Assembly (NCBI GenBank): GCA_018389105.1
Contig: JACATO010001009.1
Location: forward strand, 1,635,066 to 1,699,065
Direction of reading: 5' to 3'
DNA length: 64,000 nt
Source of the DNA: Nautilus pompilius
Lineage: Eukaryota > Mollusca > Cephalopoda > Nautilida > Nautilidae
A program made the translations under genes and the position numbers. Under the pieces are notes generated by a model. That model made no database searches. It saw only the letters and a list, made by a program, of their open reading frames with translations, and was not told the DNA's origin. This document shows, piece after piece, positions 1,680-64,000 of the stretch. Each line of letters begins with the position of its first letter. The first letter of the stretch is position 1.

Positions 1680-4600
1680 ATCACCATCTTCCTTTGGGTT
1701 TCCTGTTTGGAATGTTCTTTCGACATGGTCAGCAGTTCTTTTCGAAGACGACAAATTCTTTCTGCCTGGTTTCTTAAACAACAAAAAATGCAAAAAAAAA
1801 TAATTTACAATTAAGCAGAGCGCTCAGGAACCAAGTTATATGCAGTGTTTCTCAAAGTTAGCCATATTGTCCCTTAGTGAACCACAATACATGTCTGGGG
1901 ACCATACAAATTTTCAGTCAAGCGTACAATTTGCTTTTTGGTATTGTAAGTATTAGGACATTTTCAGACTGATTGACAGTTAACAGTAGGCCTCTGTCCA
2001 GGTTTTTGGCTGGTTTCTTATGAGTTACTGAGAGTAATATTGTTATGGTAGGTGACAACCTTCCTGGACCTTGAATCGATCACATTATATATACATAAGG
2101 TATATCAAAGTTTGGTAGGCTCTAATTACACATTTATTTTTGTTATTCTGACTTTATAGAGGGGACCACAGTGATAAAAGGGGTTTAAAAAGGGGGGCAG
2201 AAACCAAAAACGTTTGAGAAACCCTGTTATGAAGGACAGCTACCTACTATGAACACACTGCACAAGTAAAGGCATTCTTTTTCATAAAGGTAAAATAATC
2301 CTAGATCAAATTTTAAATCCTTTTTACCTTTATATATAAAAAAAAAAACAGAAAAAAACTTTTCACTCATTGCTGAGAGAACAAAATGGCCACCAAAATC
2401 AAAATTCTTAAGCCGAGTTATTTCTGGACTAAAACCATATTAAAATAATGATTATCATATTAATTAAAATATTCCAATCTTTAAAGAGCTGATATTAAAG
2501 TGGCTGAACATGTTATCTAAATCTGCTTTTCTATTTACTGACAATTTAGAAAACCTTCCCACAGTGCAATGCTATTTAAACTCACAATTGCTTACAAGAC
2601 AAAGTTGGTTAAATATCTGACAATCTTTAAAAATAGACCACACTAATTCTTTAGCTCTTGTACTCTTTGTTTGAGCAGCAGAGATGCATACCATACCATA
2701 CCAGTCAGCTTTGGCTGAGAGGCAAAGTTCAATTCCCAAGGATGACTGGCCTGGTTTGGCAAAATTTGCTTAGGATGGTTTCTTCTTGCTCTTCAGTGTC
2801 AATCTACTGGCATGGGATTCCAGTAAAGATGTTCCATGTCCTCCTGTAGATTGGTGCCGCCTAGACCAACAAAGTGCAGGAATGCCAACACCGCTTATCA
2901 GCAACCACGACACTATGTACATATACATTTGTAAATGATGATCTGCCATAATGATCTGATAAACTAATTCAGAAATTAATGACAATGGTCAGAACCTAAT
3001 TGCAAATTTTTGCAGCACTGCATTTTGAGGTTTACTAAATTATCAACACATAAAAACGAGGTCCTGATTGCATACAACTGTGCTGGTTCAAAAAAACTTC
3101 CAGTTAAATATTTAAATCCCATGTAAAGCCAAAGTTACTGGGCATACCTGAAGATCTAATTGGCTAGAAAGGATATTGCTGTAGAATGAAAATAAATAAT
3201 TATTAATAATTTAAGTATTAAATTCTTATTTTACTACAAAAAAGTCACCTGAGGTTTTTTGTGAGGATTTTACTGTTTTTTCCCACATGAAAAAATTACT
3301 ATCACCATCATCTTGACATGAAAAATTTTGGCCAAAATCATAGAAGTCCCTGTCAGGCTTGAGACAAAATCACTTTCTGCTAAATAGTGTCCAGGTATAA
3401 GCTTAATGATCTCCACAACTTTACCTATATCTTTCAGGTAGCATGATTGCTAGTTAGAGCAAGCACAGACGACATGACCTCCACTCCAGTCAGTCAGTCT
3501 GAAAGAATCAGCACCATAAATGCCTATCTAGCTGTCTTCCACCTATAGTCTGCAATTTTCACAACACTGCTTTATCCTCTATAGTAAACAGGTGTGGATA
3601 GAAGTATACCTGCACAGTGAGCTGTTGGCATTATCAGAGTAGGATAGTTTTCAAATGACCAGGCATCTTAAAAGCTTGAGAAGGACAGCATAGTTTAAAA
3701 ACAAAAACTTTCTGCCACTGTTGTTTCTAACATGTGATTTGTTCACATCCACTGGTACTCACATTACATACTTATCCAGCTCCCCTCTCAGGTGACTTGC
3801 TGGCATTTCACCAAGTACACGGATAATGGTACCTTCATGTTTATCTTTCCTGCAGAGAAACACAAGAGCATGAAGAAATGCCAAAATAAAACCTCCAAAA
3901 TGTCATTCTCCAATAAGGAAATTAAAATGTTTGCTATCTTCCTTAGAAAAGCATCTAGAAAAAATGTTTACGGTATTACCACAAAAATGTTTTTGTTTTT
4001 TTTCTTTTTGTAAAAGTTGCTTAAAAGCCAATACAAGATTCCCTTGCCTGCCATGGTGGTTATATTCTTGAAAACCACCACAGTAGGAAAGGCCTTATAG
4101 GAAACAGGAAGTCAGGGGAACTGCAGCCACAGTTTCTTTAACCCCTATGTTATTTCACTACTGTGGTTCAGTGACATCTCAGAGGAGGATGTGGCTGGAG
4201 CATCAGTGGCGGCTTTCGTAAAAAACCTAAGATGGAAGGTTGGCTCATTTTCTTCTGTGGATGAAATCCCTTTGTAGTTCCTTATATGGTCTCATTAATT
4301 CCTCCAACCCTCACTTTAGGTTGAGGTTACGCTCTTTGAATGGATCAATTTCTTTCCATGAAGAGATAAGAGATTGGTAGCATATATCATTCTGAGGATA
4401 AGGTTGGCTAGTCATCTTCAGCTTCTCCACTACATCCTCACCTGCATTGTCATCACTAGATAATTATATCAGCTCCTCAAGGTCTTCCTTGGTTAATTCC
4501 TTCATGTGTGACTGAAGGAGCTCCTTGACCACATTAGCTTTGATGTTGGCCAGCCCCTCACCTCCCAAATGCTATGCAGCCTCCACAATGCATTTGAACT

Positions 4601-37850: not shown

Positions 37851-38611
37851 GTACATATAACAAGGTGTCCCCCAGAACATAGTTTGGGCACTAAAATAAT
37901 CTAATTTATATCACCCATTAGATTTTTATATTTGTCAAAGTTACTTGATGGACTCCACTAAAAATTTGCAAAAGTTGTTATCCAAGCAAAAGACAGAGGG
38001 AGTTATTTTGATGAAGCCAAGATTTAAAGTCACAAGTTTATTGTTTGTTCTTTTTACATTCACCGTGTTATGGTGAGAAATAAAATGGTAATATTCTTTT
38101 TTAAATAATTATTCCCATATTTGTGTCAGCTTCCAAACTTTCAGCCAGTAGTTCATATATATATACGTGACTATATAGGTAGATAAATACCCAGATATAT
38201 TCATAAATTTATATGTACATATAATATAAATAATGGTTTCAAGTCTGAAAATCATGGTTTTGTAGAACTGTTAAAAGTAGGGTTTACTCTGTTAGAATTT
38301 AACTATTTTTCTAAATATAAATTCTATGCAGACGGGTCGGCCTTAAAGCTCACAGGGAATAAGTGGCTTTTATCCAGATCTATTACGGTTTATTTTACAT
38401 CAACAGAACTTTGATTTTGCAAGATTTTAATCTGATCGTTGTAAAATTATTCCTCTGACAATGGAATCGGTCTTGTGGTGGTGAGTTCGCCATCACGAAG
38501 CCACTGTTCTATTAGATAAACCTCGCTGTTGTGGCCGACTACTTAGAGCCGGTGAGTGCACTTACAGCCTCATAAAAACTGGCTTCCAGAGTCGGAGTGC
38601 GGGGCCCTAAC

Positions 38612-39385
38612 CCAGCAACAACTGTCTTGCTCTTCCATTGCCCGGAGAAGCTTTGGTCCATCTCCTGTCACCTGTCACCCCCCCCCCCGGACAGGTGACC
38701 GACTGTACCCAGCTCGAACACGAGACACCCAGTCATAAACCCAACAACAACTGTCTTGCTCTTCCATTGCCCGGAGAAACTTTGGTCCATCTCCTGTCAC
38801 TCCCCCCCCCCGGACAGGTGTCCGACTGTACCCAGCTCGAACACGAGACACCCTGTCACAAACCCAACAACAACTGTCTTGCTCTTCCATTGCCCGGAGA
38901 AGCTTTGGTCCATCTCCTGTCACCTGTCACACCCCCCCGGACAGGTGCCCGACTGTACCCAGCTCGAACACGAGACACCCAGTCACAAACCCAACAACAA
39001 CTGTCTTGCTCTTCCATTGCCCGGAGAAGCTTTGGTCCATCTCCTGTCACCTGTCACCCCCCCCCCCCGGACAGGTGTCCGACTGTACCCAGCTCGAACT
39101 CGAGACACCCAGTCATAAACCCAACAACAGCTGTCTTGCTCTTCCATTGCCCGGAGAAGCTTTGGTCCATCTCCTGTCACCTGTCACCCCCCCCCCCGGA
39201 CAGGTGCCCGACTGTACCCAGCTCGAACACGAGACACCCAGTCACAAACCCAACAACAGCTGTCTTGCTCTTCCATTGCCCGGAGAAGCTTTGGTCCATC
39301 TCCTGTCTCCTGTCACCTCCCCCTCCCCCGGCAGGTGCCCGACTGTACCCAGCTCGAACACGAGACACCCAGTCACAGTACCTGT
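38612..39385. repeat. Minisatellite: six copies of a ~127-bp GC-rich unit with hairpin and C-run
   Basis: The anchor TGTCTTGCTCTTCCATTGCC recurs at 38623, 38752, 38875, 39002, 39132 and 39261 (spacings 129, 123, 127, 130, 129). Each unit has a run of C, 5 to 12 long, followed by GGACAGGTG. In most units CACCTGTC precedes the run, so CACCTGTC and GACAGGTG can form an 8-bp stem with the C-run in the loop. The CAGGTG/CACCTG hexamers are E-box-like. The sixth unit has an interrupted C-run. Several frames are open on both strands, but the unit length is not a multiple of three, so I do not treat it as coding. Confidence 0.93.
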
Positions 39386-43549: not shown

Positions 43550-45060
43550 GAGAGGATTTTAAAAGTAGATGAAAGCAAGCGGAAGCAGCCTTTGATTTTA
43601 AACCAAAGTTTCTGAAATTTTTTTGGCTAATGTCATCCTTTTCAAACTCCTTGTACCAAGGTGAGCAATGACGTAATTTAGGCGGCTGCCAAAATTGATG
43701 TACATAATGATAAGTACCATGGTTGATTAAGGTCCAGGGAGTTAGCATTACAGTAACTCATCAGGAAGCAGCCAATGAACTAAACAGGGACCTACTGTTA
43801 ACTGTCAATTAGTTTGAAAATGTGCTAATATTTACAATACAAAAAGGAAATTGTACATCTGATAGTGAAAATTGGTGTTTTCCTCACATGTTTACTTGGC
43901 TTTCCTATGGTCTAATTGCTTTACATGACCTAGTAATGGCTCACTTTGAGAAATACAGATTTAATCCATAAGCATGTCCAGTTGATAATCATTTACATCA
44001 TTGTGGACGTTCGAGTTGAAGAATATCAAAAATGTTAGCTTTTCATGTGACCCATGGATTTCATTTATGCCAGGAAGTCATTGTTTATTCTTGTAACTGC
44101 AACCTTTAATTTAATCACTATAGCTGATATAAACAATTTAATTTTTGATGATGTTCTTGACATTAATCTGAATGCTACAATAATCTCACAAGGCTGAATT
44201 TTATAAATTGTTGAAGAATTTAGTTAGGTTTTTTTAGACTTTTTATTAATATAGAAAACAGATTTGTAAACAACTTATTTTGTTATGGTTAATTTTTTTA
44301 GGAATCAAATATATTATTTTTTCAGAATTTGTAAAAAATATACCAAAACAAGGTAAAAATTAAATGAGTTATGTCCGTTTTCCTAACTCTTGACAATGCA
44401 CAGTATTAAAACAGCAGCGCCATATGCCATCTACCTGATGATTTGTTTTTTTGTTGTTTTTTGTTTTTTTTTTTTTAAAAAAAGTTGCTTTAACTTTGTA
44501 CATTTTTTTGGTGGTTATTTTTGGAAGGTTCCATTATTTAGCAAAATGCATTTTTGTGTGTTTGAATCAATATATTGTATGACCATTTCTTCTTATCTTT
44601 TCTGAGAATTTGTTTTTTATACATGCAAAGTTTGGCTACATTACATTTTCATCATGCAGTATTCAATGACATAGAAATGCTTAGTTGACATTCTAGCTAT
44701 TCTCTTCCTCATCTGACTCCTTCCATTTATTTTTCCTAATCCTTTGTTTTTAGACTTAACATGAAAAAAGGGTGCTATGAATTGTTTTATCGTGAAATTC
44801 CTCAGCTTTTTTAACCTGTATTAAATATGTTATTTCTAATGGAAAAACTAACAATCACAGCAAGTGATGCACTTGTAATTGTTTTTTGCTTTCCCTAATA
44901 ATTAATGCCATAAACCAAAATATTTTGCTAATTTGTTAAAGATAATGTTTATTAATGGAATTTATTTCCCATGTTGAAGAATAGGATAAATAGCAAAGGT
45001 ATCTGACTTAACAGATAAGCATTATAGCAATCTAAAATATTTTAAGAACGTATCTTTTTT
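43550..45060. repeat. Array copy 0, diverged edge unit
   Basis: Recognisable along its whole length but with many substitutions and indels against the rest: ATGTCATCCTTTTCAAACTC, then CTACTGTTAACTGTCAATTA, then the TCATCATGCAGTATTCAATG block. Its MITE ends are eroded (AGTTTCTGAAATT at the left). The edge position fits weaker homogenisation there. Left boundary is approximate. Confidence 0.85.
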
Positions 45061-46508
45061 ATGCATTAACGCTATTGCTCTTATATCTTGGTTGGTATCA
45101 GCTGCCTTTTATATAAACCCAGGTTTCTCAAACCTTTTTTTTTTTTGTCTTATGTCATCCTTTTCAAACTCCTCCCGCCAAACGTTGATATACATTATGA
45201 ATTTGTACCATGGTTGATTAAAGGTCCAGGGGGCTTACCCTTACCACAACAGCATTACAGTAACACATCAGCAAGCAGCCAAAGAACTAAACAGGGACCT
45301 ACTGTTAACTGTCAATTAGTTTGAAAATGTGCTAATATTTACAATACTAAAAGGAAATTGTACCTCTGACACTGAAAAATTGGCGTTTTCCTCACTTGTG
45401 CGCCGTGGCTTTCCTATGGTCTAATTGCTTTGCATGACCTAGTAATGGCTCGCTTTGAGAAATACTGATTTAAGCCATAAGCATGTGCAGTTAAAAATAA
45501 TTTTCTTCAAAGTCTACTTCCACATTGATGCATCTCAAAATGTTAGCTTTTCATGTGAGGAAGTCATTGTTTAGTCTTGTAACTGCAACCTTTAAATATT
45601 TTTAACGTTAATTTAAGCAACATAGCTGATGTGAACAATTTAATTTTTGATGATATTCTTAACATTTGTCTAATTTCAAAATCTGAATGCTACAATAATC
45701 TCACAAGCTCTGTCTTAAAAATTTGTTGTAGCATTTAGATTTTTTAGTCTTTTAATATAGAAAACAGATTTGTAACAACTTATTTTGTTATGGTTAATGT
45801 CTTTTCAGGAAACACAGTTTTATTATTGCAGAATTTGTATAAATATACCAAAAAAAAAAAAGTTAAAATTACAATGAGTTATTTCCCTTCGACTAACTCG
45901 CTAACAATGCACAGTATTAACACCAGCGCCACATGCCATCTACCTTATGTTTTTGGTGGTTATTTCTGGAAGGTTCCATTATTTAGCAAAAGGCAGTTTT
46001 GTGTGTTTGAATCAATATATTGTATGACCATTTCTTCTTATCTTTTTCTGAGAATTTGTTTTTTATACATGCAAAGTTTGGCTACATTACATTTTCATCA
46101 TGCAGTATTCAATGACATAGAAATGCTTAGTTGACATTCTAGCTATTCTCTTCCTCATCTGACTCCTTCCATTTAATTTTTCCTAATCCTTTGTTTTTAG
46201 ACTTAACATGAAAAAAGGGTGCTATGAATTGTTTTATCGTGAAATTCCTCAGCTTTTTTAAACCTGTATTAAATATGTTATTTCTAATGGAAAAACTAAC
46301 AATCACAGCAAGTGATGCACTTGTAATTGTTTTTTGCTTTCCCTAATAATTAATGCCATAAACCAAAATATTTTGCTAATTTGTTAAAGATAATGTTTAT
46401 TAATGGAATTTATTTCCCATGTTGAAGAATAGGATAAATAGCAAAGGTATCTGACTTAACAGATAAGCATTATAGCAATCTAAAATATTTTAAGAACGTA
46501 TCTTTTTT
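45061..46508. repeat. Array copy 1 (1448 bp, full type)
   Basis: Nearly identical to copies 2-4. Contains the MITE at 45120-45467 and the 118-bp segment that is absent from short copies. Confidence 0.95.
45120..45467. mobile_element. hAT-type MITE within the array unit (representative copy)
   Basis: Begins CAGGTTTCTCAAACC and ends GCTTTGAGAAATACTG, giving inverted ends CAGGTTTCTCAAA and CAGTATTTCTCAAA, 348 bp apart. Read inverted, it aligns along its length with the single element at 1843-2226, sharing TTGACAGTTAACAGTAGG, TATTGTAAATATTAG and the ends. The outer flanks TATAAACC and ATTTAAGC may be a decayed target duplication. The corresponding segment is present in every complete array copy, so the insertion predates amplification. 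No ORF of its own. Confidence 0.85.
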
Positions 46509-47958
46509 ATGCATTAACGCCATTGCTCTTATATCTTGGTTGGTATCAGCTGCCTTTTATATAAACCCAGGTTTCTTAAACCTTTTTTTTTTGTCTTATG
46601 TCATCCTTTTCAAACTCCTCTCGCCAAACGTTGATATACATTATGAATGTGTACAATGGTTGATTAAAGGTGCAGCGGCGTTTACCCTTACCACAACAGC
46701 ATTACAGTAACTCATCAGCAAGCAGCCAAAGAACTAAACAGGGACCTACTGTTAACTGTCAATTAGTTTGAAAATGTGCTAATATTTACAATAGTAAAAG
46801 GAAATTGTACCTCTGGCACTGAAAAATTGGCGTTTTCCTCACTTGTGCGCCGTGGCTTTCCTATGGTCTAATTGCTTTGCATGACCTAGTAATGGCTCGC
46901 TTTGAGAAATACTGATTTAAGCCATAAGCATGTGCAGTTAAAAATAATTTTCTTCAAAGTCTACTTCCACATTGATGCATCTCAAAATGTTAGCTTTTCA
47001 TGTGAGGAAGTCATTGTTTAGTCTTGTAACTGCAACCTTTAAATATTTTTAACGTTAATTTAAGCAACATAGCTGATGTGAACAATTTAATTTTTGATGA
47101 TATTCTTAACATTTGTCTAATTTCAAAATCTGAATGCTACAATAATCTCACAAGCTCTGTCTTAAAAATTTGTTGTAGCATTTAGATTTTTTAGTCTTTT
47201 AATATAGAAAACAGATTTGTAACAACTTATTTTGTTATGGTTAATGTCTTTTCAGGAAACAGTTTTATTATTGCAGAATTTGTATAAATATACCAAAAAA
47301 AAAAAAAAGTTAAAATTACAATGAGTTATTTCCCTTCGACTAACTCGCTAACAATGCGCAGTATTAACACCAGCGCCACATGCCATCTACCTTATGTTTT
47401 TGGTGGTTATTTCTGGAAGGTTCCATTATTTAGCAAAAGGCAGTTTTGTGTGTTTGAATCAATATATTGTATGACCATTTCTTCTTATCTTTTTCTGAGA
47501 ATTTGTTTTTTATACATGCAAAGTTTGGCTACATTACATTTTCATCATGCAGTATTCAATGACATAGAAATGCTTAGTTGACATTCTAGCTATTCTCTTC
47601 CTCATCTGACTCCTTCCATTTAATTTTTCCTAATCCTTTGTTTTTAGACTTAACATGAAAAAAGGGTGCTATGAATTGTTTTATCGTGAAATTCCTCAGC
47701 TTTTTTAAACCTGTATTAAATATATTATTTCTAATGGAAAAAACTAATAATCACAGCAAGTGATGCACTTGTAATTGTTTTTTGCTTTCCCTAATAATTA
47801 ATGCCATAAACCAAAATATTTTGCTAATTTGTTAAAGATAATGTTTATTAATGGAATTTATTTCCCATGTTGAAGAATAGGATAAATAGCAAAGGTATCT
47901 CTGACTTAACAGATAAGCATTATAGCAATCTAAAATATTTTAAGAACGTATCTTTTTT
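46509..47958. repeat. Array copy 2 (1450 bp, full type)
   Basis: Full-length unit. It carries the variant CAGCGGCGTTTACCC in the MITE, shared with copies 6, 10 and 11. It also has GAATGTGTACAATGG in place of GAATTTGTACCATGG. Confidence 0.95.
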
Positions 47959-49380
47959 ATGCATTAACGCTATTGCTCTTATATCTTGGTTGGTATCAGC
48001 TGCCTTTTATATAAACCCAGGTTTCTCAAACCTTTTTTTTTTTGTCTTATGTCATCCTTTTCAAACTCCTCCCGCCAAACGTTGATATACATTATGAATT
48101 GTACCATGGTTGATTAAAGGTCCAGGGGGTTACCCTTACCACAACAGCATTACAGTAACACATCAGCAAGCAGCCAAAGAACTAAACAGGGACCTACTGT
48201 TAACTGTCAATTAGTTTGAAAATGTGCTAATATTTACAATACTAAAAGGAAATTGTACCTCTGACACTGAAAAATTGGCGTTTTCCTCACTTGTGCGCCG
48301 TGGCTTTCCTATGGTCTAATTGCTTTGCATGACCTAGTAATGGCTCGCTTTGAGAAATACTGATTTAAGCCATAAGCATGTGCAGTTAAAAATAATTTTC
48401 TTCAAAGTCTACTTCCACATTGATGCATCTCAAAATGTTAGCTTTTCATGTGAGGAAGTCATTGTTTAGTCTTGTAACTGCAACCTTAAATATTTTTAAC
48501 GTTAATTTAAGCAACATAGCTGATGTGAACAATTTAATTTTTGATGATATTCTTAACATTTGTCTAATTTCAAAATCTGAATGCTACAATAATCTCACAA
48601 GCTCTGTCTTAAAAATTTGTTGTAGCATTTAGATTTTTAGTCTTTTAATATAGAAAACAGATTTGTAACAACTTATTTTGTTATGGTTAATGTCTTTTCA
48701 GGAAACACAGTTTTATTATTGCAGAATTTGTATAAATATACCAAAAAAAAAAAAGTTAAAATTACAATGAGTTATTTCCCTTCGACTAACTCGCTAACAA
48801 TGCACAGTATTAACACCAGCGCCACATGCCATCTACCTTATGTTTTTGGTGGTTATTTCTGGAAGGTTCCATTATTTAGCAAAAGGCAGTTTTGTGTGTT
48901 TGAATCAATATTGTATGACCATTTCTTATCTTTTTCTGAGAATTTGTTTTTTATACATGCAAAGTTTGGCTACATTACATTTTCATCATGCAGTATTCAA
49001 TGACATAGAAATGCTTAGTTGACATTCTAGCTATTCTCTTCCTCATCTGACTCCTTCCATTTAATTTTTCCTAATCCTTTGTTTTTAGACTTAACATGAA
49101 AAAAGGGTGCTATGAATTGTTTTATCGTGAAATTCCTCAGCTTTTTTAAACCTGTATTAAATATATTATTTCTAATGGAAAAACTAACAATCACAGCAAG
49201 TGATGCACTTGTAATTGTTTTTTGCTTTCCCTAATAATTAATGCCATAAACCAAAATATTTTGCTAATTTATTAATGGAATTTATTTCCCATGTTGAAGA
49301 ATAGGATAAATAGCAAAGGTATCTGACTTAACAGATAAGCATTATAGCAATCTAAAATATTTTAAGAACGTATCTTTTTT
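47959..49380. repeat. Array copy 3 (1422 bp, full type with small deletions)
   Basis: Full-type unit, shorter because of small losses near 48905-48930 (CAATATTGTATGACC, CATTTCTTATC) and near 49265 (TAATTTATTAATGG). Confidence 0.95.
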
Positions 49381-50819
49381 ATGCATTAACGCTATTGCTC
49401 TTATATCTTGGTTGGTATCAGCTGCCTTTTATATAAACCCAGGTTTCTCAAACCTTTTTTTTTTTTCTTATGTCATCCTTTTCAAACTCCTCCCGCCAAA
49501 CGTTGATATACATTATGAATTTGTACCATGGTTGATTAAAGGTCCAGGGGGCTTACCCTTACCACAACAGCATTACAGTAACACATCAGCAAGCAGCCAA
49601 AGAACTAAACAGGGACCTACTGTTAACTGTCAATTAGTTTGAAAATGTGCTAATATTTACAATACTAAAAGGAAATTGTACCTCTGACACTGAAAAATTG
49701 GCGTTTTCCTCACTTGTGCGCCGTGGCTTTCCTATGGTCTAATTGCTTTGCATGACCTAGTAATGGCTCGCTTTGAGAAATACTGATTTAAGCCATAAGC
49801 ATGTGCAGTTAAAAATAATTTTCTTCAAAGTCTACTTCCACATTGATGCATCTCAAAATGTTAGCTTTTCATGTGAGGAAGTCATTGTTTAGTCTTGTAA
49901 CTGCAACCTTTAAATATTTTTAACGTTAATTTAAGCAACATAGCTGATGTGAACAATTTAATTTTTGATGATATTCTTAACATTTGTCTAATTTCAAAAT
50001 CTGAATGCTACAATAATCTCACAAGCTCTGTCTTAAAAATTTGTTGTAGCATTTAGATTTTTTAGTCTTTTAATATAGAAAAACAGATTTGTAACAACTT
50101 ATTTTGTTATGGTTAATGTCTTTTCAGGAAACAGTTTTATTATTGCAGAATTTGTATAAATATACCAAAAAAAAAAAAAAGTTAAAATTACAATGAGTTA
50201 TTTCCCTTCGACTAACTCGCTAACAATGCGCAGTATTAACACCAGCGCCACATGCCATCTACCTTATGTTTTTGGTGGTTATTTCTGGAAGGTTCCATTA
50301 TTTAGCAAAAGGCAGTTTTGTGTGTTTGAATCAATATATTGTATGACCATTTCTTCTTATCTTTTTCTGAGAATTTGTTTTTTATACATGCAAAGTTTGG
50401 CTACATTACATTTTCATCATGCAGTATTCAATGACATAGAAATGCTTAGTTGACATTCTAGCTATTCTCTTCCTCATCTGACTCCTTCCATTTAATTTTT
50501 CCTAATCCTTTGTTTTTAGACTTAACATGAAAAAAGGGTGCTATGAATTGTTTTATCGTGAAATTCCTCAGCTTTTTTAAACCTGTATTAAATATATTAT
50601 TTCTAATGGAAAAACTAACAATCACAGCAAGTGATGCACTTGTAATTGTTTTTTGCTTTCCCTAATAATTCATAAACCAAAATTTTGCTAATTTGTTAAA
50701 GATAATGTTTATTAATGGAATTTATTTCCCATGTTGAAGAATAGGATAAATAGCAAAGGTATCTGACTTAACAGATAAGCATTATAGCAATCTAAAATAT
50801 TTTAAGAACGTATCTTTTT
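49381..50819. repeat. Array copy 4 (1439 bp, full type)
   Basis: Full-length unit with a small loss near 50669 (TAATAATTCATAAACC). Confidence 0.95.
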
Positions 50820-52145
50820 ATGCATTAACGCCATTGCTCTTATATCTTGGTTGGTATCAGCTGCCTTTTATATAAACCCAGGTTTCTCAAACCTTTTTTT
50901 TTTTTTGTCTTATGTCATCCTTTTCAAACTCCTCCCGCCAAACGTTGATATACATTATGAATTTGTACCATGGTTGATTAAAGGTCCAGGGGGTTTACCC
51001 TTACCACAACAGCATTACAGTAACTCATCAGCAAGCAGCCAAAGAACTAAACAGGGACCTACTGTTAACTGTCAATTAGTTTGAAAATGTGCTAATATTT
51101 ACAATACTAAAAGGAAATTGTACCTCTGATACTGAAAAATTGGCGTTTTCCTCACTTGTGCGCCGTGGCTTTCCTATGGTCTAATTGCTTTTTGCATGAC
51201 CTAGTAATGGCTCGCTTTGAGAAATACTGATTTAAGCCATAAGCATGTGCAGTTAAAAATAATTTTCTTCAAAGTCTACTTCCACATTGATGCATCTCAA
51301 AATGTTAGCTTTTCAAGTGAGGAAGTCATTGTTTAGTCTTGTAACTGCAACCTTTAAATATTTTTAACGTTAATTTAAGCAACATAGCTGATGTGAACAA
51401 TTTAATTTTTGATGATATTCTTAACATTTGTCTAATTTCAAAATCTGAATGCTACAATAATCTCACAAGCTCTGTCTTAAAAATTTGTTGTAGAATTTAG
51501 ATTCTTTAGTCTTTTAATATAGAAAACAGATTTGTAACAACTTATTTTGTTATGGTTAATGTCTTTTCAGGAAACACAGTTTTATTATTGCAGAATTTGT
51601 ATAAATATACCAAAAAAAAAAGTTAAAATTACAATGAGTTTTGTGTGTTTGAATCAATATTGTATGACCATTTCTTATCTTTTTCTGAGAATTTGTTTTT
51701 TATACTTGCAAAGTTTGGCTACATTACATTTTCATCATGCAGTATTCAATGACATAGAAATGCTTAGTTGACATTCTAGCTATTCTCTTCCTCATCTGAC
51801 TCCTTCCATTTAATTTTTCCTAATCCTTTGTTTTTAGACTTAACATGAAAAAAGGGTGCTATGAATTGTTTTATCGTGAAATTCCTCAGCTTTTTTAAAC
51901 CTGTATTAAATATATTATTTCTAATGGAAAAACTAATAATCACAGCAAGTGATGCACTTGTAATTGTTTTTTGCTTTCCCTAATAATTAATGCCATAAAC
52001 CAAAATATTTTGCTAATTTGTTAAAGATAATGTTTATTAATGGAATTTATTTCCCATGTTGAAGAATAGGATAAATAGCAAAGGTATCTGACTTAACAGA
52101 TAAGCATTATAGCAATCTAAAATATTTTAAGAACGTATCTTTTTT
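50820..52145. repeat. Array copy 5 (1326 bp, short type)
   Basis: Lacks the 118-bp segment: ACAATGAGTT joins directly to TTGTGTGTTTGAATC near 51640. Confidence 0.95.
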
Positions 52146-53461
52146 ATGCATTAACGCCATTGCTCTTATATCTTGGTTGGTATCAGCTGCCTTTTATATA
52201 AACCCAGGTTTCTTAAACCTTTTTTTTTTGTCTTATGTCATCCTTTTCAAACTCCTCTCGCCAAACGTTGATATACATTATGAATGTGTACAATGGTTGA
52301 TTAAAGGTGCAGCGGCGTTTACCCTTACCACAACAGCATTACAGTAACTCATCAGCAAGCAGCCAAAGAACTAAACAGGGACCTACTGTTAACTGTCAAT
52401 TAGTTTGAAAATGTGCTAATATTTACAATACTAAAAGGAAATTGTTCGTCTGATACTGAAAAATTGGTGTTTTCCTCACTTGTGCGCCGTGGCTTTCCTA
52501 TGGTCTAATTGCTTTGCATGACCTAGTAATGGCTCGCTTTGAGAAATACTGATTTAAGCCATAAGCATGTGCAGTTAAAAATAATTTTCTTCAAAGTCTA
52601 CTTCCACATTGATGCATCTCAAAATGTTAGCTTTTCATGTGAGGAAGTCATTGTTTAGTCTTGTAACTGCAACCTTTAAATATTTTTAACGTTAATTTAA
52701 GCAACATAGCTGATGTGAACAATTTAATTTTTGATGATATTCTTAACATTTGTCTAATTTCAAAATCTGAATGCTACAATAATCTCACAAGCTCTGTCTT
52801 AAAAATTTGTTGTAGCATTTAGATTTTTTAGTCTTTTAATATAGAAAACAGATTTGTAACAACTTATTTTGTTATGGTTAATGTCTTTTCAGGAAACACA
52901 GTTTTATTATTGCAGAATTTGTATAAATATACCAAAAAAAAAGTTAAAATTTAATTACAATGAGTTTTGTGTGTTGAATCAAATATCTTGTATGATCATT
53001 TCTTCTTAGCTTTTTCTGAGAATTTGTTTTTTTTTATACATGCAAAGTTTGGCTACATTACATTTTCATCATGCAGTATTCAATGACATAGAAATGCTTA
53101 GTTGACATTCTAGCTATTCTCTTCCTCATCTGACTCCTTCCATTTAATTTTTCCTAATCCTTTGTTTTTAGACTTAACATGAAAAAGGGTGCTATGAATT
53201 GTTTTATCGTGAAATTCCTCAGCTTTTTTAAACCTGTATTAAATATATTATTTCTAATGGAAAAACTAACAATCACAGCAAGTGATGCACTTGTAATTGT
53301 TTTTTGCTTTCCCTAATAATTAATGCCATAAACCAAAATATTTTGCTAATTTATTAATGGAATTTATTTCCCATGTTGAAGAATAGGATAAATAGCAAAG
53401 GTATCTGACTTAACAGATAAGCATTATAGCAATCTAAAATATTTTAAGAACATATCTTTTT
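52146..53461. repeat. Array copy 6 (1316 bp, short type)
   Basis: Carries the same 118-bp deletion (junction near 52968). It also has a small insertion before the junction (AAATTTAATTACAATG). Confidence 0.95.
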
Positions 53462-54769
53462 ATGCAATAACGCTATTGCTCTTATATCTTGGTTGGTATC
53501 AGCTGCCTTTATATAAACCCAGGTTTCTCAAACCTTTTTTTTTTGTCTTATGTCATCCTTTTCAAACTCCTCGTGCCAAACGTTGATATACATTATGAAT
53601 TGTACCATGGTTGATTAAAGGTCCAGGGGGTTTACCCTTACCACAACAGCATTACAGTAACTCATCAGCAAGCAGCCAAAGAACTAAACAGGGACCTACT
53701 GTTAACTGTCAATTAGTTTGAAAATGTGCTAATATTTACAATACTAAAAGGAAATTGTACCTCTGACACTGAAAAATTGGCGTTTTCCTCACTTGTGCGC
53801 CGTGGCTTTCCTATGGTCTAATTGCTTTTTGCATGACCTAGTAATGGCTCGCTTTGAGAAATACTGATTTAAGCCATAAGCATGTGCAGTTAAAAATAAT
53901 TTTCTTCAAAGTCTACTTCCACATTGATGCATCTCAAAATGTTAGCTTTTCATGTGAGGAAGTCATTGTTTAGTCTTGTAACTGCAACCTTTAAATATTT
54001 TTAACGTTAATTTAAGCAACATAGCTGATGTGAACAATTTAATTTTTGATGATATTCTAACATTTGTCTAATTTCAAAATCTGAATGCTACAATAATCTC
54101 ACAAGCTCTGTCTTAAAAATTTGTTGTAGAATTTAGATTCTTTAGTCTTTTAATATAGAAAACAGATTTGTAACAACTTATTTTGTTATGGTTAATGTCT
54201 TTTCAGGAAACACAGTTTTATTATTGCAGAATTTGTATAAATATACCAAAAAAAAAAGTTAAAATTACAATGAGTTTTGTGTGTTTGAATCAATATATTG
54301 TATGATCATTTCTTCTTATCTTTTTCTGAGAATTTGTTTTTTATACATGCAAAGTTTGGCTACATTACATTTTCATCATGCAGTATTCAATGACATAGAA
54401 ATGCTTAGTTGACATTCTAGCTATTCTCTTCCTCATCTGACTCCTTCCATTTAATTTTTCCTAATCCTTTGTTTTTAGACTTAACATGAAAAAAGGGTGC
54501 TATGAATTGTTTTATCGTGAAATTCCTCAGCTTTTTTAAACCTGTATTAAATATATTATTTCTAATGGAAAAACTAATAATCACAGCAAGTGATGCACTT
54601 GTAATTGTTTTTTGCTTTCCCTAATAATTAATGCCATAAACCAAAATATTTTGCTAATTTATTAATGGAATTTATTTCCCATGTTGAAGAATAGGATAAA
54701 TAGCAAAGGTATCTGACTTAACAGATAAGCATTATAGCAATCTAAAATATTTTAAGAACATATCTTTTT
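53462..54769. repeat. Array copy 7 (1308 bp, short type)
   Basis: Carries the 118-bp deletion (junction near 54275). Shares the ATGCAATAACG and CTCGTGCC variants with copies 8 and 13. Confidence 0.95.
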
Positions 54770-56220
54770 ATGCAATAACGCTATTGCTCTTATATCTTGG
54801 TTGGTATCAGCTGCCTTTTACATAAACCCAGGTTTCTCAAACCTTTTTTTTTTTTGTCTTATGTCATCCTTTTCAAACTCCTCGTGCCAAACGTTGATAT
54901 ACATTATGAATTTGTACCATGGTTGATTAAAGGTCCAGGGGGTTTACCCTTACCACAACAGCATTACAGTAACTCATCAGCAAGCAGCCAAAGAACTAAA
55001 CAGGGACCTACTGTTAACTGTCAATTAGTTTGAAAATGTGCTAATATTTACAATACTAAAAGGAAATTGTACGTCTGATACTGAAAAATTGGTGTTTTCC
55101 TCACTTGTGCGCCGTGGCTTTCCTATGGTGTAATTGCTTTTTGCATGACCTAGTAATGGCTCGCTTTGAGAAATACTGATTTAAGCCATAAGCATGTGCA
55201 GTTAAAAATAATTTTCTTCAAAGTCTACTTCCACATTGATGCATCTCAAAATGTTAGCTTTTCATGTGAGGAAGTCATTGTTTAGTCTTGTAACTGCAAC
55301 CTTTAAATATTTTTAACGTTAATTTAAGCAACATAGCTGATGTGAACAATTTAATTTTTGATGATATTCTTAACATTTGTCTAATTTCAAAATCTGAATG
55401 CTACAATAATCTCACAAGCTCTGTCTTAAAAATTTGTTGTAGCATTTAGATTTTTTAGTCTTTTAATATAGAAAACAGATTTGTAACAACTTATTTTGTT
55501 ATGGTTAATGTCTTTTCAGGAAACAGTTTTATTATTGCAGAATTTGTATAAATATACCAAAAAAAAAAAAAAAGTTAAAATTACAATGAGTTATTTCCCT
55601 TCGACTAACTCGCTAACAATGCACAGTATTAACACCAGCGCCACATGCCATCTACCTTATGTTTTTGGTGGTTATTTTTGGAAGGTTCCATCATTTAGCA
55701 AAAGGCAGTTTTGTGTGTTTGAATCAATATATTGTATGACCATTTCTTCTTATCTTTTTCTGAGAATTTGTTTTTTATACATGCAAAGTTTGGCTACATT
55801 ACATTTTCATCATGCAGTATTCAATGACATAGAAATGCTTAGTTGACATTCTAGCCATTCTCTTCCTCATCTGACTCCTTCCATTTAATTTTTCCTAATC
55901 CTTTGTTTTTAGACTTAACATGAAAAAAGGGTGCTATGAATTGTTTTATCGTGAAATTCCTCAGCTTTTTTAAACCTGTATTAAATATATTATTTCTAAT
56001 GGAAAAAACTAATAATCACAGCAAGTGATGCACTTGTAATTGTTTTTTTGCTTTCCCTAATAATTAATGCCATAAACCAAAATATTTTGCTAATTTGTTA
56101 AAGATAATGTTTATAATGGAATTTATTTCCCATGTTGAAGAATAGGATAAATAGCAAAGGTATCTGACTTAACAGATAAGCATTATAGCAATCTAAAATA
56201 TTTTAAGAACGTATCTTTTT
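54770..56220. repeat. Array copy 8 (1451 bp, full type)
   Basis: Full-length unit whose left half carries the ATGCAATAACG/CTCGTGCC variants otherwise seen with short copies. This suggests unequal exchange between the two types. Confidence 0.95.
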
Positions 56221-57667
56221 ATGCATTAACGCCATTGCTCTTATATCTTGGTTGGTATCAGCTGCCTTTTATATAAACCCAGGTTTCTCAAACCTTTTTT
56301 TTTTTTTCTTATGTCATCCTTTTCAAACTCCTCCGCCAAACGTTGATATACATTATGAATTTGTACCATGGTTGATTAAAGGTCCAGGGGGTTTACCCTT
56401 ACCACAACAGCATTACAGTAACTCATCAGCAAGCAGCCAAAGAACTAAACAGGGACCTACTGTTAACTGTCAATTAGTTTGAAAATGTGCTAATATTTAC
56501 AATACTAAAAGGAAATTGTACCTCTGACACTGAAAAATTGGCGTTTTCCTCACTTGTGCGCCGTGGCTTTCCTATGGTCTAATTGCTTTTTGCATGACCT
56601 AGTAATGGCTCGCTTTGAGAAATACTGATTTAAGCCATAAGCATGTGCAGTTAAAAATAATTTTCTTCAAAGTCTACTTCCACATTGATGCATCTCAAAA
56701 TGTTAGCTTTTCATGTGAGGAAGTCATTGTTTAGTCTTGTAACTGCAACCTTTAAATATTTTTAACGTTAATTTAAGCAACATAGCTGATGTGAACAATT
56801 TAATTTTTGATGATATTCTTAACATTTGTCTAATTTCAAAATCTGAATGCTACAATAATCTCACAAGCTCTGTCTTAAAAATTTGTTGTAGCATTTAGAT
56901 TTTTTAGTCTTTTAATATAGAAAACAGATTTGTAACAACTTATTTTGTTATGGTTAATGTCTTTTCAGGAAACAGTTTTATTATTGCAGAATTTGTATAA
57001 ATATACCAAAAAAAAAAAAAAGTTAAAATTACAATGAGTTATTTCCCTTCGACTAACTCGCTAACAATGCACAGTATTAACACCAGCGCCACATGCCATC
57101 TACCTTATGTTTTTGGTGGTTATTTTTGGAAGGTTCCATTATTTAGCAAAAGGCAGTTTTGTGTTTGAATCAATATATTGTATGACCATTTCTTCTTATC
57201 TTTTTCTGAGAATTTGTTTTTTATACGTGCAAAGTTTGGCTACATTACATTTTCATCATGCAGTATTCAATGACATAGAAATGCTTAGTTGACATTCTAG
57301 CTATTCTCTTCCTCATCTGACTCCTTCCATTTAATTTTTCCTAATCCTTTGTTTTTAGACTTAACATGAAAAAAGGGTGCTATGAATTGTTTTATCGTGA
57401 AATTCCTCAGCTTTTTTAAACCTGTATTAAATATATTATTTCTAATGGAAAAAACTAATAATCACAGCAAGTGATGCACTTGTAATTGTTTTTTGCTTTC
57501 CCTAATAATTAATGCCATAAACCAAAATATTTTGCTAATTTGTTAAAGATAATGTTTATTAATGGAATTTATTTCCCATGTTGAAGAATAGGATAAATAG
57601 CAAAGGTATCTAACTTAACAGATAAGCATTATAGCAATCTAAAATATTTTAAGAACGTATCTTTTTT
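56221..57667. repeat. Array copy 9 (1447 bp, full type)
   Basis: Full-length unit, close to copies 8 and 10. Confidence 0.95.
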
Positions 57668-59100
57668 ATGCATTAACGCCATTGCTCTTATATCTTGGTT
57701 GGTATCAGCTGCCTTTTATATAAACCCAGGTTTCTCAAACCTTTTTTTTTTTGTCTTATGTCATCCTTTTCAAACTCCTCTCGCCAAACGTTGATATACA
57801 TTATGAATGTGTACAATGGTTGATTAAAGGTCCAGCGGCGTTTACCCTTACCACAACAGCATTACAGTAACTCATCAGCAAGCAGCCAAAGAACTAAACA
57901 GGGACCTACTGTTAACTGTCAATTAGTTTGAAAATGTGCTAATATTTACAATACTAAAAGGAAATTGTACGTCTGATACTGAAAAATTGGCGTTTTCCTC
58001 ACTTGTGCGCCGTGGCTTTCCTATGGTCTAATTGCTTTTTGCATGACCTAGTAATGGCTCGCTTTGAGAAATACTGATTTAAGCCATAAGCATGTGCAGT
58101 TAAAAATAATTTTCTACAAAGTCTACTTCCACATTGATGCATCTCAAAATGTTAGCTTTTCATGTGAGGAAGTCATTGTTTAGTCTTGTAACTGCAACCT
58201 TTAAATATTTTTAACGTTAATTTAAGCAACATAGCTGATGTGAACAATTTAATTTTTGATGATATTAACATTTGTCTAATTTCAAAATCTGAATGCTACA
58301 ATAATCTCACAAGCTCTGTCTTAAAAATTTGTTGTAGCATTTAGATTTTTTAGTCTTTTAATATAGAAAACAGATTTGTAACAACTTATTTTGTTATGGT
58401 TAATGTCTTTTCAGGAAACAGTTTTATTATTGCAGAATTTGTATAAATATACCAAAAAAAAAAAAAAAAGTTAAAATTACAATGAGTTATTTCCCTTCGA
58501 CTAACTCGCTAACAATGCACAGTATTAACACCAGCGCCACATGCCATCTACCTTATGTTTTTGGTGGTTATTTCTGGAAGGTTCCATTATTTAGCAAAAG
58601 GCAGTTTTGTGTGTTTGAATCAATATATTGTATGACCATTTCTTCTTATCTTTTTCTGAGATGCAAAGTTTGGCTACATTACATTTTCATCATGCAGTAT
58701 TCAATGACATAGAAATGCTTAGTTGACATTCTAGCTATTCTCTTCCTCATCTGACTCCTTCCATTTAATTTTTCCTAATCCTTTGTTTTTAGACTTAACA
58801 TGAAAAAAGGGTGCTATGAATTGTTTTATCGTGAAATTCCTCAGCTTTTTTAAACCTGTATTAAATATATTATTTCTAATGGAAAAAACTAATAATCACA
58901 GCAAGTGATGCACTTGTAATTGTTTTTTGCTTTCCCTAATAATTAATGCCATAAACCAAAATATTTTGCTAATTTGTTAAAGATAATGTTTATTAATGGA
59001 ATTTATTTCCCATGTTGAAGAATAGGATAAATAGCAAAGGTATCTGACTTAACAGATAAGCATTATAGCAATCTAAAATATTTTAAGAACGTATCTTTTT
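57668..59100. repeat. Array copy 10 (1433 bp, full type)
   Basis: Full-type unit with CAGCGGCGTTTACCC. It has lost about 16 bp near 58660 (TTTTTCTGAGATGCAAAG), and GATGATATTAACATT replaces GATGATATTCTTAACATT, a variant shared with copy 11. Confidence 0.95.
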
Positions 59101-60542
59101 ATGCATTAACGCCATTGCTCTTATATCTTGGTTGGTATCAGCTGCCTTTTATATAAACCCAGGTTTCTCAAACCTTTTTTTTTTTTGTCTTATGTCATCC
59201 TTTTCAAACTCCTCTCGCCAAACGTTGATATACATTATGAATGTGTACAATGGTTGATTAAAGGTGCAGCGGCGTTTACCCTTACCACAACAGCATTACA
59301 GTAACTCATCAGCAAGCAGCCAAAGAACTAAACAGGGACCTACTGTTAACTGTCAATTAGTTTGAAAATGTGCTAATATTTACAATACTAAAAGGAAATT
59401 GTACCTCTGACACTGAAAAATTGGCGTTTTCCTCACTTGTGCGCCGTGGCTTTCCTATGGTCTAATTGCTTTTTGCATGACCTAGTAATGGCTCGCTTTG
59501 AGAAATACTGATTTAAGCCATAAGCATGTGCAGTTAAAAATAATTTTCTTCAAAGTCTACTTCCACATTGATGCATCTCAAAATGTTAGCTTTTCATGTG
59601 AGGAAGTCATTGTTTAGTCTTGTAACTGCAACCTTTAAATATTTTTAACGTTAATTTAAGCAACATAGCTGATGTGAACAATTTAATTTTTGATGATATT
59701 AACATTTGTCTAATTTCAAAATCTGAATGCTACAATAATCTCACAAGCTCTGTCTTAAAAATTTGTTGTAGAATTTAGATTCTTTGGTCTTTTAATATAG
59801 AAAACAGATTTGTAACAACTTATTTTGTTATGGTTAATGTCTTTTCAGGAAACACAGTTTTATTATTGCAGAATTTGTATAAATATACCAAAAAAAAAAA
59901 AGTTAAAATTACAATGAGTTATTTCCCTTCGACTAACTCGCTAACAATGCACAGTATTAACACCAGCGCCACATGCCATCTACCTTATGTTTTTGGTGGT
60001 TTTTTTGGAAGGTTCCATTATTTAGCAAAAGGCAGTTTTGTGTGTTTGAATCAATATATTGTATGACCATTTCTTCTTATCTTTTTCTGAGAATTTGTTT
60101 TTTATACATGCAAAGTTTGGCTACATTACATTTTCATCATGCAGTATTCAATGACATAGAAATGCTTAGTTGACATTCTAGCTATTCTCTTCCTCATCTG
60201 ACTCCTTCCATTTAATTTTTCCTAATCCTTTGTTTTTAGACTTAACATGAAAAAAGGTGCTATGAATTGTTTTATCGTGAAATTCCTCAGCTTTTTTAAA
60301 CCTGTATTAAATATATTATTTCTAATGGAAAAACTAATAATCACAGCAAGTGATGCACTTGTAATTGTTTTTTGCTTTCCCTAATAATTAATGCCATAAA
60401 CCAAAATATTTTGCTAATTGTTAAAGATATGTTTATTAATGGAATTTATTTCCCATGTTGAAGAATAGGATAAATAGCAAAGGTATCTGACTTAACAGAT
60501 AAGCATTATAGCAATCTAAAATATTTTAAAACGTATCTTTTT
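59101..60542. repeat. Array copy 11 (1442 bp, full type)
   Basis: Full-length unit sharing GATGATATTAACATT and CAGCGGCGTTTACCC with copy 10. Confidence 0.95.
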
Positions 60543-61865
60543 ATGCATTAACGCCATTGCTCTTATATCTTGGTTGGTATCAGCTGCCTTTTATATAAAC
60601 CCAGGTTTCTCAAACCTTTTTTTTTTTTTGTCTTATGTCATCCTTTTCAAACTCCTCCCGCCAAACGTTGATATACATTATGAATTTGTACCATGGTTGA
60701 TTAAAGGTCCAGGGGGTTTACCCTTACCACAACAGCATTACAGTAACTCATCAGCAAGCAGCCAAAGAACTAAACAGGGACCTACTGTTAACTGTCAATT
60801 AGTTTGAAAATGTGCTAATATTTACAATACTAAAAGGAAATTGTACCTCTGACACTGAAAAATTGGCGTTTTCCTCACTTGTGCGCCGTGGCTTTCCTAT
60901 GGTCTAATTGCTTTTTGCATGACCTAGTAATGGCTCGCTTTGAGAAATACTGATTTAAGCCATAAGCATGTGCAGTTAAAAATAATTTTCTTCAAAGTCT
61001 ACTTCCACATTGATGCATCTCAAAATGTTAGCTTTTCATGTGAGGAAGTCATTGTTTAGTCTTGTAACTGCAACCTTTAAATATTTTTAACGTTAATTTA
61101 AGCAACATAGCTGATGTGAACAATTTAATTTTTGATGATATTCTTAACATTTGTCTAATTTCAAAATCTGAATGCTACAATAATCTCACAAGCTCTGTCT
61201 TAAAAATTTGTTGTAGCATTTAGATTTTTTAGTCTTTTAATATAGAAAACAGATTTGTAACAACTTATTTTGTTATGGTTAATGTCTTTTCAGGAAACAC
61301 AGTTTTATTATTGCAGAATTTGTATAAATATACCAAAAAAAAAAGTTAAAATTACAAAGTGATTTTGTAGTGTTTGAATCAATAGATTGTAATGACCATT
61401 TTCCGTTTCTTCTTTTTTCTGAGAATTTGTTTTTATACATGCAAAGTTTGGCTACATTACATTTTCATCATGCAGTATTCAATGACATAGAAATGCTTAG
61501 TTGACATTCTAGCTATTCTCTTCCTCATCTGACTCCTTCCATTTAATTTTTCCTAATCCTTTGTTTTTAGACTTAACATGAAAAAAGGGTGCTATGAATT
61601 GTTTTATCGTGAAATTCCTCAGCTTTTTTAAACCTGTATTAAATATATTATTTCTAATGGAAAAAATAATCACAGCAAGCAAGCAGTGATGCACTTGTAA
61701 TTGTTTTTTGCTTTCCCTAATAATTAATGCCATAAACCAAAATATTTTGCTAATTTATTAATGGAATTTATTTCCCATGTTGAAGAATAGGATAAATAGC
61801 AAAGGTATCTGACTTAACAGATAAGCATTATAGCAATCTAAAATATTTTAAGAACATATCTTTTT
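60543..61865. repeat. Array copy 12 (1323 bp, short type)
   Basis: Carries the 118-bp deletion with a scrambled junction (ACAAAGTGATTTTGTAGTG near 61356). An AGCAAGCAAGC expansion occurs near 61675. Confidence 0.93.
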
Positions 61866-63186
61866 ATGCAATAACGCTATTGCTCTTATATCTTGGTTGG
61901 TATCAGCTGCCTTTTTATAACCCAGGTTTCTCAAACCTTTTTTTTTTTTGTCTTATGTCATCCTTTTCAAACTCCTCGTGCCAAACGTTGATATACATTA
62001 TGAATATGTACCATGGTTGATTAAAGGTCCAGGGGGTTTACCCTTACCACAACAGCATTACAGTAACTCATCAGCAAGCAGCCAAAGAACTAAACAGGGA
62101 CCTACTGTTAACTGTCAATTAGTTTGAAAATGTGCTAATATTTACAATACTAAAAGGAAATTGTACCTCTGATACTGAAAAATTGGTGTTTTTCCTCACT
62201 TGTGCGCCGTGGCTTTCCTATGGTCTAATTGCTTTTTGCATGACCTAGTAATGGCTCGCTTTGAGAAATACTGATTTAAGCCATAAGCATGTGCAGTTAA
62301 AAATAATTTTCTTCAAAGTCTACTTCCACATTGATGCATCTCAAAATGTTAGCTTTTCATGTGAGGAAGTCATTGTTTAGTCTTGTAACTGCAACCTTTA
62401 ATATTTTTAACGTTAATTTAAGCAACATAGCTGATGTGAACAATTTAATTTTTGATGATATTCTTAACATTTGTCTAATTTCAAAATCTGAATGCTACAA
62501 TAATCTCACAAGCTCTGTCTTAAAAATTTGTTGTAGAATTTAGATTCTTTAGTCTTTTAATGTAGAAAACAGATTTGTAACAACTTATTTTGTTATGGTT
62601 AATGTCTTTTCAGGAAACACAGTTTTATTATTGCAGAATTTGTATAAATATACCAAAAAAAAAAAAGTTAAAATTACAATGAGTTTTTGTGTGTTGAATC
62701 AATATATTGTATGATCATTCTCTTATCTTTTTTCTGAGAATTTTTTTTTTTTACATGCAAAGTTTGGCTACATTACATTTTCATCATGCAGTATTCAATG
62801 ACATAGAAATGCTTAGTTGACATTCTAGCTATTCTCTTCCTCATCTGACTCCTTCCATTTAATTTTTCCTAATCCTTTGTTTTTAGACTTAACATGAAAA
62901 AAGGGTGCTATGAATTGTTTTATCGTGAAATTCCTCAGCTTTTTAAACCTGTATTATATATATTTCTAATGGAAAAACTAATAATCACAGCAAGTGATGC
63001 ACTTGTAATTGTTTTTTTGCTTTCCCTAATAATTAATGCCATAAACCAAAATATTTTGCTAATTTGTTAATAATTTTATTAATGGAATTTATTTCCATGT
63101 TGAAGAATAGGATAAATAGCAAAGGTATCTGACTTAACAGATAAGCATTATAGCAATCTAAAATATTTTAAGAACATATCTTTTTT
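61866..63186. repeat. Array copy 13 (1321 bp, short type)
   Basis: Carries the 118-bp deletion (junction near 62683). Single-base indels become more frequent from here onward. Confidence 0.93.
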
Positions 63187-64000
63187 ATGCATTAACGCTA
63201 TTGCTCTTATATCTTGGTTGGTATCAGCTGCCTTTTATATAAACCCAGGTTTCTCAACCTTTTTTTTTTTTTGTCTTATGTCATCCTTTTCAAACTCCTC
63301 GTGGCCAAACGTTGATATACATTAATGAATATGTACCATGGTTGATAAAGGTCCAGGGGGTTTACCCTTACCACACAGCATTACAGTAACTCATCAGCAA
63401 GCAGCCAAAGAACTAAACAGGGACCTACTGTTAACTGTCAATTAGTTTGAAAATGTGCTAATATTTACAATACTAAAAGGAAATTGTACCTCTGATACTG
63501 AAAAATTGGCGTTTTCCTCACTTGTGCGCCGTGGCTTTCCTATGGTCTAAATTGCTTTTTGCATGACCTAGTAATGGCTCGCTTTGAGAAATACTGATTA
63601 AGCCATAAGCATGTGCAGTTAAAAATATTTTCTTCAACGTCTACTTCCACATTGATGCATCTCAAAATGTTAGCTTTTCATGTGAGGAAGTCATTGTTTA
63701 GTCTTGTAACTGCAACCCTTTAAATATTTTTAACGTTAATTTAAGCAACATAGCTGATGTGAACAATTAATTTTTGATGATATTCTTAACATTTGTCTAA
63801 TTTCAAAATCTGAATGCTACAATAATCTCACAAGCTCTTCTTAAAATTTGTTGTAGAATTTAGATTTTTGTCTTTTAATATAGAAAACAGATTTGTAACA
63901 ACTTATTTTGTTATGGTTAATGTCTTTTCAGGAAACACAGTTTTATTATTGGCAGATTTGTATAAATATACCAAAAAAAAAAGTTAAAAAATTACAATGA
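63187..64000. repeat. Array copy 14 (partial, cut by the window edge)
   Basis: First 814 bp of a unit. It has many single-base gains and losses at otherwise invariant places (for example GTGGCCAAACG, CCACACAGC, GGCAGATTTG), a pattern expected of low-accuracy sequence. Confidence 0.93.

Follow-up and report, generated by a model that had tools for sequence, protein, structure and literature searches.

The right part of the window (the whole stretch of 64,000 nucleotides of Nautilus pompilius DNA analysed here) contains a tandem array of large units, each carrying a short insert that we take to be a hAT-like MITE, and a related copy of this insert lies near the left end of the window (Table 1). 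The array takes up 20.4 kb of the window. Its unit, mostly 1.31-1.45 kb long, recurs head to tail and is read here as 20 bp, then the MITE, then a right flank (R) and a left flank (L). In a blastn comparison of the window with itself, direct repeats at ~95-98% identity were found over 44502-64000, the family extending from ~43.7 kb to the right end, and the self-comparison that had been suggested as a check thus bore out the tandem structure. The units were cut at the right MITE end, and the 15 anchors gave 14 intervals, of which the first measures 1509 bp, eight are long (1423-1449 bp) and five are short (1312-1323 bp). In order, the first nine spacings are 1509, 1447, 1448, 1423, 1444, 1322, 1315, 1312 and 1449 bp, and the remaining five are 1449, 1434, 1442, 1321 and 1323 bp. 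They represent 13 complete homogenized units (U01-U13) and one hybrid first unit, with a 404-bp partial unit at the window end; the initial annotation's count of at least 13 complete tandem copies of a 1.3-1.45-kb unit, running off the right edge, therefore stands on both self-comparison and unit alignment.

Alignment of the unit profile set the left border at 43584 (E 1.1e-86; envelope from 43564), about 34 bp to the right of the start at 43550 given previously. When window positions 1-43960 were searched with the unit profile, the edge copy and the MITE outside the array were recovered and then nothing better than E 0.91, which excludes chance as the source of the array. The array is not listed by Tandem Repeats Finder because the longest period there was 500 bp. 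The units are arranged head to tail, non-coding and homogenized, as in satellite DNA, and the array is confirmed as real in the sequence as assembled. Macrosatellites have kilobase units, are confined to one or a few loci with tens to hundreds of copies, and vary between individuals; the kilobase unit length fits this class, with 14 homogenized MITE copies inside the 64-kb window and the right end of the array beyond it.

Table 1. Coordinates of the array, its MITE copies and related features in the window
Feature	Position	Strand	Basis or remark
Related MITE outside array, 384 bp	1843..2226	- (opposite to array copies)	blastn, alignment, nhmmer E 2.7e-43
Tandem array	43584..64000	+	Self blastn, unit alignment; left limit from unit profile; continues past window end
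Diverged MITE of first unit	43604..43958	+	Ends CAAAGTTTCTG...TTTGAGAAATACAG; flanked by TTTTAAAC and ATTTAATC
Diverged R segment of first unit	43959..44441 (end approximate)	+	376/446 aligned bases as consensus, 72 gap columns
T-rich insertion, first unit only	44442..44502 (limits approximate)	+	64 alignment columns; identity switches here
Homogenized L segment of first unit	44503..45118	+	608/613 aligned bases as consensus, 5 gap columns
First homogenized hAT-like MITE copy, 349 bp	45119..45467	+	Flanked by ATATAAAC and ATTTAAGC
118-bp segment of a long unit, missing from short units	45881..45998	+	AGTT at both break points
MITE copy	46567..46914	+	Sequence block B
MITE copy	48017..48362	+	
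MITE copy	49439..49785	+	
MITE copy	50878..51229	+	
Short-class junction	51625..51655	+	Exact
MITE copy	52204..52551	+	Sequence block B
MITE copy	53519..53866	+	
MITE copy	54828..55178	+	
MITE copy	56279..56627	+	
MITE copy	57726..58076	+	Sequence block B
MITE copy	59159..59510	+	Sequence block B
MITE copy	60601..60952	+	
MITE copy	61922..62273	+	
MITE copy	63245..63596	+	

An insert of 346-352 bp occupies one and the same place in all 14 homogenized copies, and the diverged edge copy also carries it. By the boundaries used here this agrees with the 348-bp hAT MITE that had been described at the same place in every complete copy. Its proposed ends held in part: the right end TTTGAGAAATACTG is exact in 14/14 homogenized copies, while the left end CAGGTTTCTCAAA is exact in 11/14 and has one mismatch in the other three, where it reads CTTAAA (46567 and 52204) or CTCAAC (63245). 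The insert is short and non-coding, and its ends form short inverted repeats of ~14 bp of the type starting CAG expected of a hAT MITE; one end reads CCAGGTTTCTCAAA in the array and CAGGGTTTCTCAAA outside it, and the other reads CAGTATTTCTCAAA. The array left end starts CAGG in the earlier reading, which we replaced: an ungapped comparison of the array, edge and outside copies sets the end one base earlier and yields better 8-bp flanks, although the array end then departs from CAG and this boundary was picked after the flanks had been seen. No hAT transposase was found among the reading frames of the window, and exact patterns from the MITE core had no matches in viral and prokaryote contigs, which says little for an animal element.

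Within the window one interspersed copy has the same ends. This outside MITE lies ~43 kb from the array, aligns end to end with the array copies and has similar terminal repeats; 275/393 aligned bases are identical when some flank is included, and the core shows 77-80% identity over 213-216 columns (blastn). The profile alignment exceeds its terminal repeat by 23 bp (2227-2249), which we read as alignment overrun.

The window also holds other repeats and possible transposon remnants. In a GC-richer region at 38609-39377, a 129-bp unit with a poly-C stretch is repeated six times in tandem (94% matches), and 22743-23042 holds a direct duplication of 154 bp (1.9 copies, 98% matches). Frames at 14023-14695 (+), which may perhaps belong to a decayed Mutator-like transposon, encode a FLYWCH zinc finger (E 2.5e-10) and match a MULE transposase weakly, below the cut-off (E 0.021); the frame at 15001-15324 had no Pfam match. 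At 21182-21442 (+) there are helix-turn-helix matches, including a weak Tc3-type transposase domain below the cut-off (E 0.008), in a frame that we take to read like a mariner N-terminus. The frame at 5110-5436 (-), presumably a fragment of a pogo/Tigger-type transposase, had no Pfam match. The FLYWCH, weak MULE and weak Tc3-type matches agree with an animal source of the DNA.

Insertion of a hAT element duplicates an 8-bp target, with the pattern nTnnnnAn. The 8-mers that flank the MITE are ATATAAAC and ATTTAAGC for the array, TTTTAAAC and ATTTAATC for the edge copy, and each of these four main versions is one base off ATTTAAAC, which itself fits the hAT pattern. Left and right flanks match at 6/8 places in 11/14 array copies and in the edge copy, and at 5, 4 and 4 places in the other three. 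Among random 8-mer pairs of the window at least six matching places occur with P = 0.0078, a value whose true weight is lower because the offset was chosen after looking. The flanks of the outside MITE match at 3/8 places directly and at 5/8 with a one-base shift (counted by eye), giving no clean target duplication. The array and edge flanks are thus compatible with one ancestral 8-bp target duplication, ATTTAAAC, that would since have decayed.

With units taken in the order MITE-R-L, the first one is whole and not truncated, and only half of it is diverged: identity to the array is 80-84% in its MITE and right flank and 99% in the remainder. The 'diverged left edge copy' of the initial annotation is therefore an apt description of the MITE and R segment but not of the L segment. 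By blastn, 43744-44444 has ~80-81% identity to the array; the edge MITE with its flanks matches one homogenized copy at 342/406 positions, and relative to the array MITE it has 32 bp extra and 15 bp missing. Rooted with the outside copy, 13 derived changes fall on the array MITE and 12 on the edge MITE in 301 aligned columns, which puts the MITE insertion before the split between array and edge. The switch of identity from 80-84% to 99% at the T-rich tract inside the first unit suggests that homogenization reached only this far, and the earlier proposal of weaker homogenization at the array border is thereby retained in a sharper form. The T-rich tract itself may block conversion of the first unit, which is a guess.

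The R/L junctions of U01-U13 follow the order LLLLSSSLLLLSS, and U14 leaves the window before reaching its junction. Besides the exact short junction in Table 1, the short form is exact at 54261, carries two small edits at 62670 and was recognized by eye near 52950 and 61345, the latter junction being garbled. All five typed short units are compatible with one deletion (two exact, one with two edits, two by eye), which fits derivation of the short class from a single 118-bp deletion with 4-bp microhomology (AGTT). Since the edge unit has the long form, the long form is ancestral. Grouping of the two length classes along the array is borderline (69/1287 arrangements, 0.054), as judged from the 13 typed units; U14, whose sequence stops before the junction, was excluded.

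Differences among the 13 complete units reach 3.1%, corresponding to identities of 96.9-99.7% when substitutions only are counted, and the eight long units (U01-U04 and U08-U11) differ pairwise by 0.3-1.0%. No pair of the 13 is identical, the smallest difference being 3 per 1000. A minority base occurs in at least two of the 13 units at 25 sites, and all four combinations are present in 86/200 biallelic site pairs. Such mosaic variants fit what exchange or conversion predicts, and repeated mutation or errors in the consensus may account for some of the four-combination pairs. Similarity between neighbouring units does not clearly exceed that in shuffled order (lag 1, 0.633 versus 0.575, p 0.065). 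A 7-unit higher-order repeat, suggested by a 9.7-kb offset match and by the order LLLLSSSLLLLSS, was rejected, as similarity at lag 7 equals that of shuffled units (0.582 versus 0.577, p 0.46).

Some of the variation is concentrated in a block (block B) of 76 columns in the left half of the MITE, where U01, U05, U09 and U10 share 3-6 substitutions and a one-base insertion; in all the rest of the unit these four differ from five compared A-type units at 4-13 sites. In U10, 4-6 of the 9-11 substitutions that separate it from the five A-type units fall inside 76 of ~1500 columns (binomial for 5 of 9, 3.5e-5, for an interval chosen after seeing the data); for U01, U05 and U09 the corresponding share is 3-6 of 10-19 substitutions. 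Another MITE copy could have donated block B by conversion, the captured MITE having opened the array to exchange with the dispersed MITE family, a reading that we consider rather unlikely; the outside MITE copy does not resemble the donor of block B.

Three of the short units stand apart in their private substitutions. Private substitutions number 10 in U06, 20 in U12 and 12 in U13, against 0-3 in the other ten units, and among those with two states 6/9, 16/19 and 5/10, respectively, are transversions, clustered in U06 and U12. Small indels lie at or beside the short junctions of the same units (52945-53020, 61340-61415 and 62670-62745) and look like those of an unpolished long-read consensus. 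U06, U12 and U13 thus probably hold consensus errors, and as their private substitutions are read mainly in this way, the assembly appears imperfect within the array; some true divergence may be present in U13, with its transversions at 5/10. Weaker homogenization towards the right side (U12, U13) was considered and not adopted, given the clustered transversions (16/19) of U12 and the indels beside the junction.

The history that we regard as very probable from these alignments begins with a non-autonomous hAT-like MITE that would have inserted once into non-coding DNA. A segment of ~1.45 kb containing the MITE would then have been duplicated in tandem and expanded by unequal exchange, the MITE being a passenger, and exchange together with gene conversion would keep the homogenized units 96.9-99.7% alike. 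About 860 bp at the left border would have escaped homogenization and are now 80-84% identical to the rest, and a 118-bp microhomology deletion in one unit would have founded the short class, which spread among the long units. Single insertion followed by passenger amplification is indicated by the shared place of the insert (14/14 copies and the edge copy), by an outside element of the same extent and by flanks that fit one target duplication, and it was in this order, capture in the ancestral unit and then amplification, that the locus had initially been interpreted. The order and mechanism of amplification, and the view of the array as a passive repeat that has no function in itself, are what we infer from the units.

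The MITE could have been more than a passenger, its ends or a hairpin having caused the amplification as proposed for Xstir and Angel elements, and such a role might overlap with the passenger view. The left limit of the array does lie only ~20 bp outside the MITE (43584 versus 43604). However, this limit does not coincide with the end of the MITE and is the one border visible, the inverted repeats are short (~14 bp), and the MITE strand shows no better folding than its shuffled versions (z 0.37; 61/100 shuffles at least as good), which together make a causal role of the element unlikely. We find it improbable, too, that the array is wholly or partly an assembly artefact in which a few units were multiplied by the assembler. 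The copy number and the independence of the units do rest on the assembly, and the private substitutions of U06, U12 and U13, the transversion clusters and the junction indels resemble uncorrected read errors; yet copying one unit would not give an array with shared variants, two length classes, mosaic combinations and no identical pair among 13 units. That the whole 1.45-kb unit is a transposable element amplified in tandem, or a dispersed unit, is highly improbable: in window positions 1-43583 the unit profile recovered the MITE part alone, once, with the next best match at E 0.91 and no recurrence of L and R, and the MITE is bounded by terminal repeats and an inferred target duplication. 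Large uniform units can be gene arrays, but a multi-copy gene or functional non-coding RNA locus has the least to commend it here, since no Rfam family at gathering score and no tRNA (ARAGORN) were found in the window and the longest ATG frame varies in length from unit to unit (40 to 114 codons in the 13).

Capture of a MITE in the ancestral unit makes this array an easily read instance of a transposon insertion that became fixed within the unit of a satellite, by an ordinary kind of repeat evolution. Its diverged border copy would place the insertion before the amplification and marks where homogenization appears to stop. The array is useful as an example and leaves the understanding of satellite origins unchanged. 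Among human macrosatellite or tandem loci, D4Z4 and RNU2 have transposon sequence in the unit, with known loci and copy numbers; they share with the present array the kilobase units in tandem, whereas the latter is known from one assembled window.

Transposons within satellite DNA are already documented in the excerpts available of the published accounts (PMC12628747, PMC9659126, PMC2581405), and further parallels appear in excerpts of PMC7018970, PMC11136912 and PMC4857426. A described hAT MITE inside a macrosatellite unit was not found in the passages of the literature searched, whose coverage mostly leaves out subscription journals. In satellite DNA of Messor ants a mariner/MITE element (Mboumar; Palomeque et al. 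2006) lies inside the repeat, according to the passages available (PMC2581405, PMC9659126); a DNA transposon within satellite DNA is common to both cases, the Messor element belonging to the mariner family whereas the one described here is hAT-like. The 'transposon graveyards', as portrayed in the part of the source at hand (PMC12628747), are composite satellite monomers in which transposon remnants stand beside other DNA and were amplified with it as one, as in our array, but they contain several short degraded stretches per monomer where the present unit contains one complete MITE with recognizable ends. In Xstir and miDNA4, MITE-associated satellites of Xenopus, as far as the excerpts describe them (PMC12628747, PMC9659126), MITE and tandem array likewise share a history; what is repeated in them lies within the MITE, whereas here the MITE is itself part of a larger unit.
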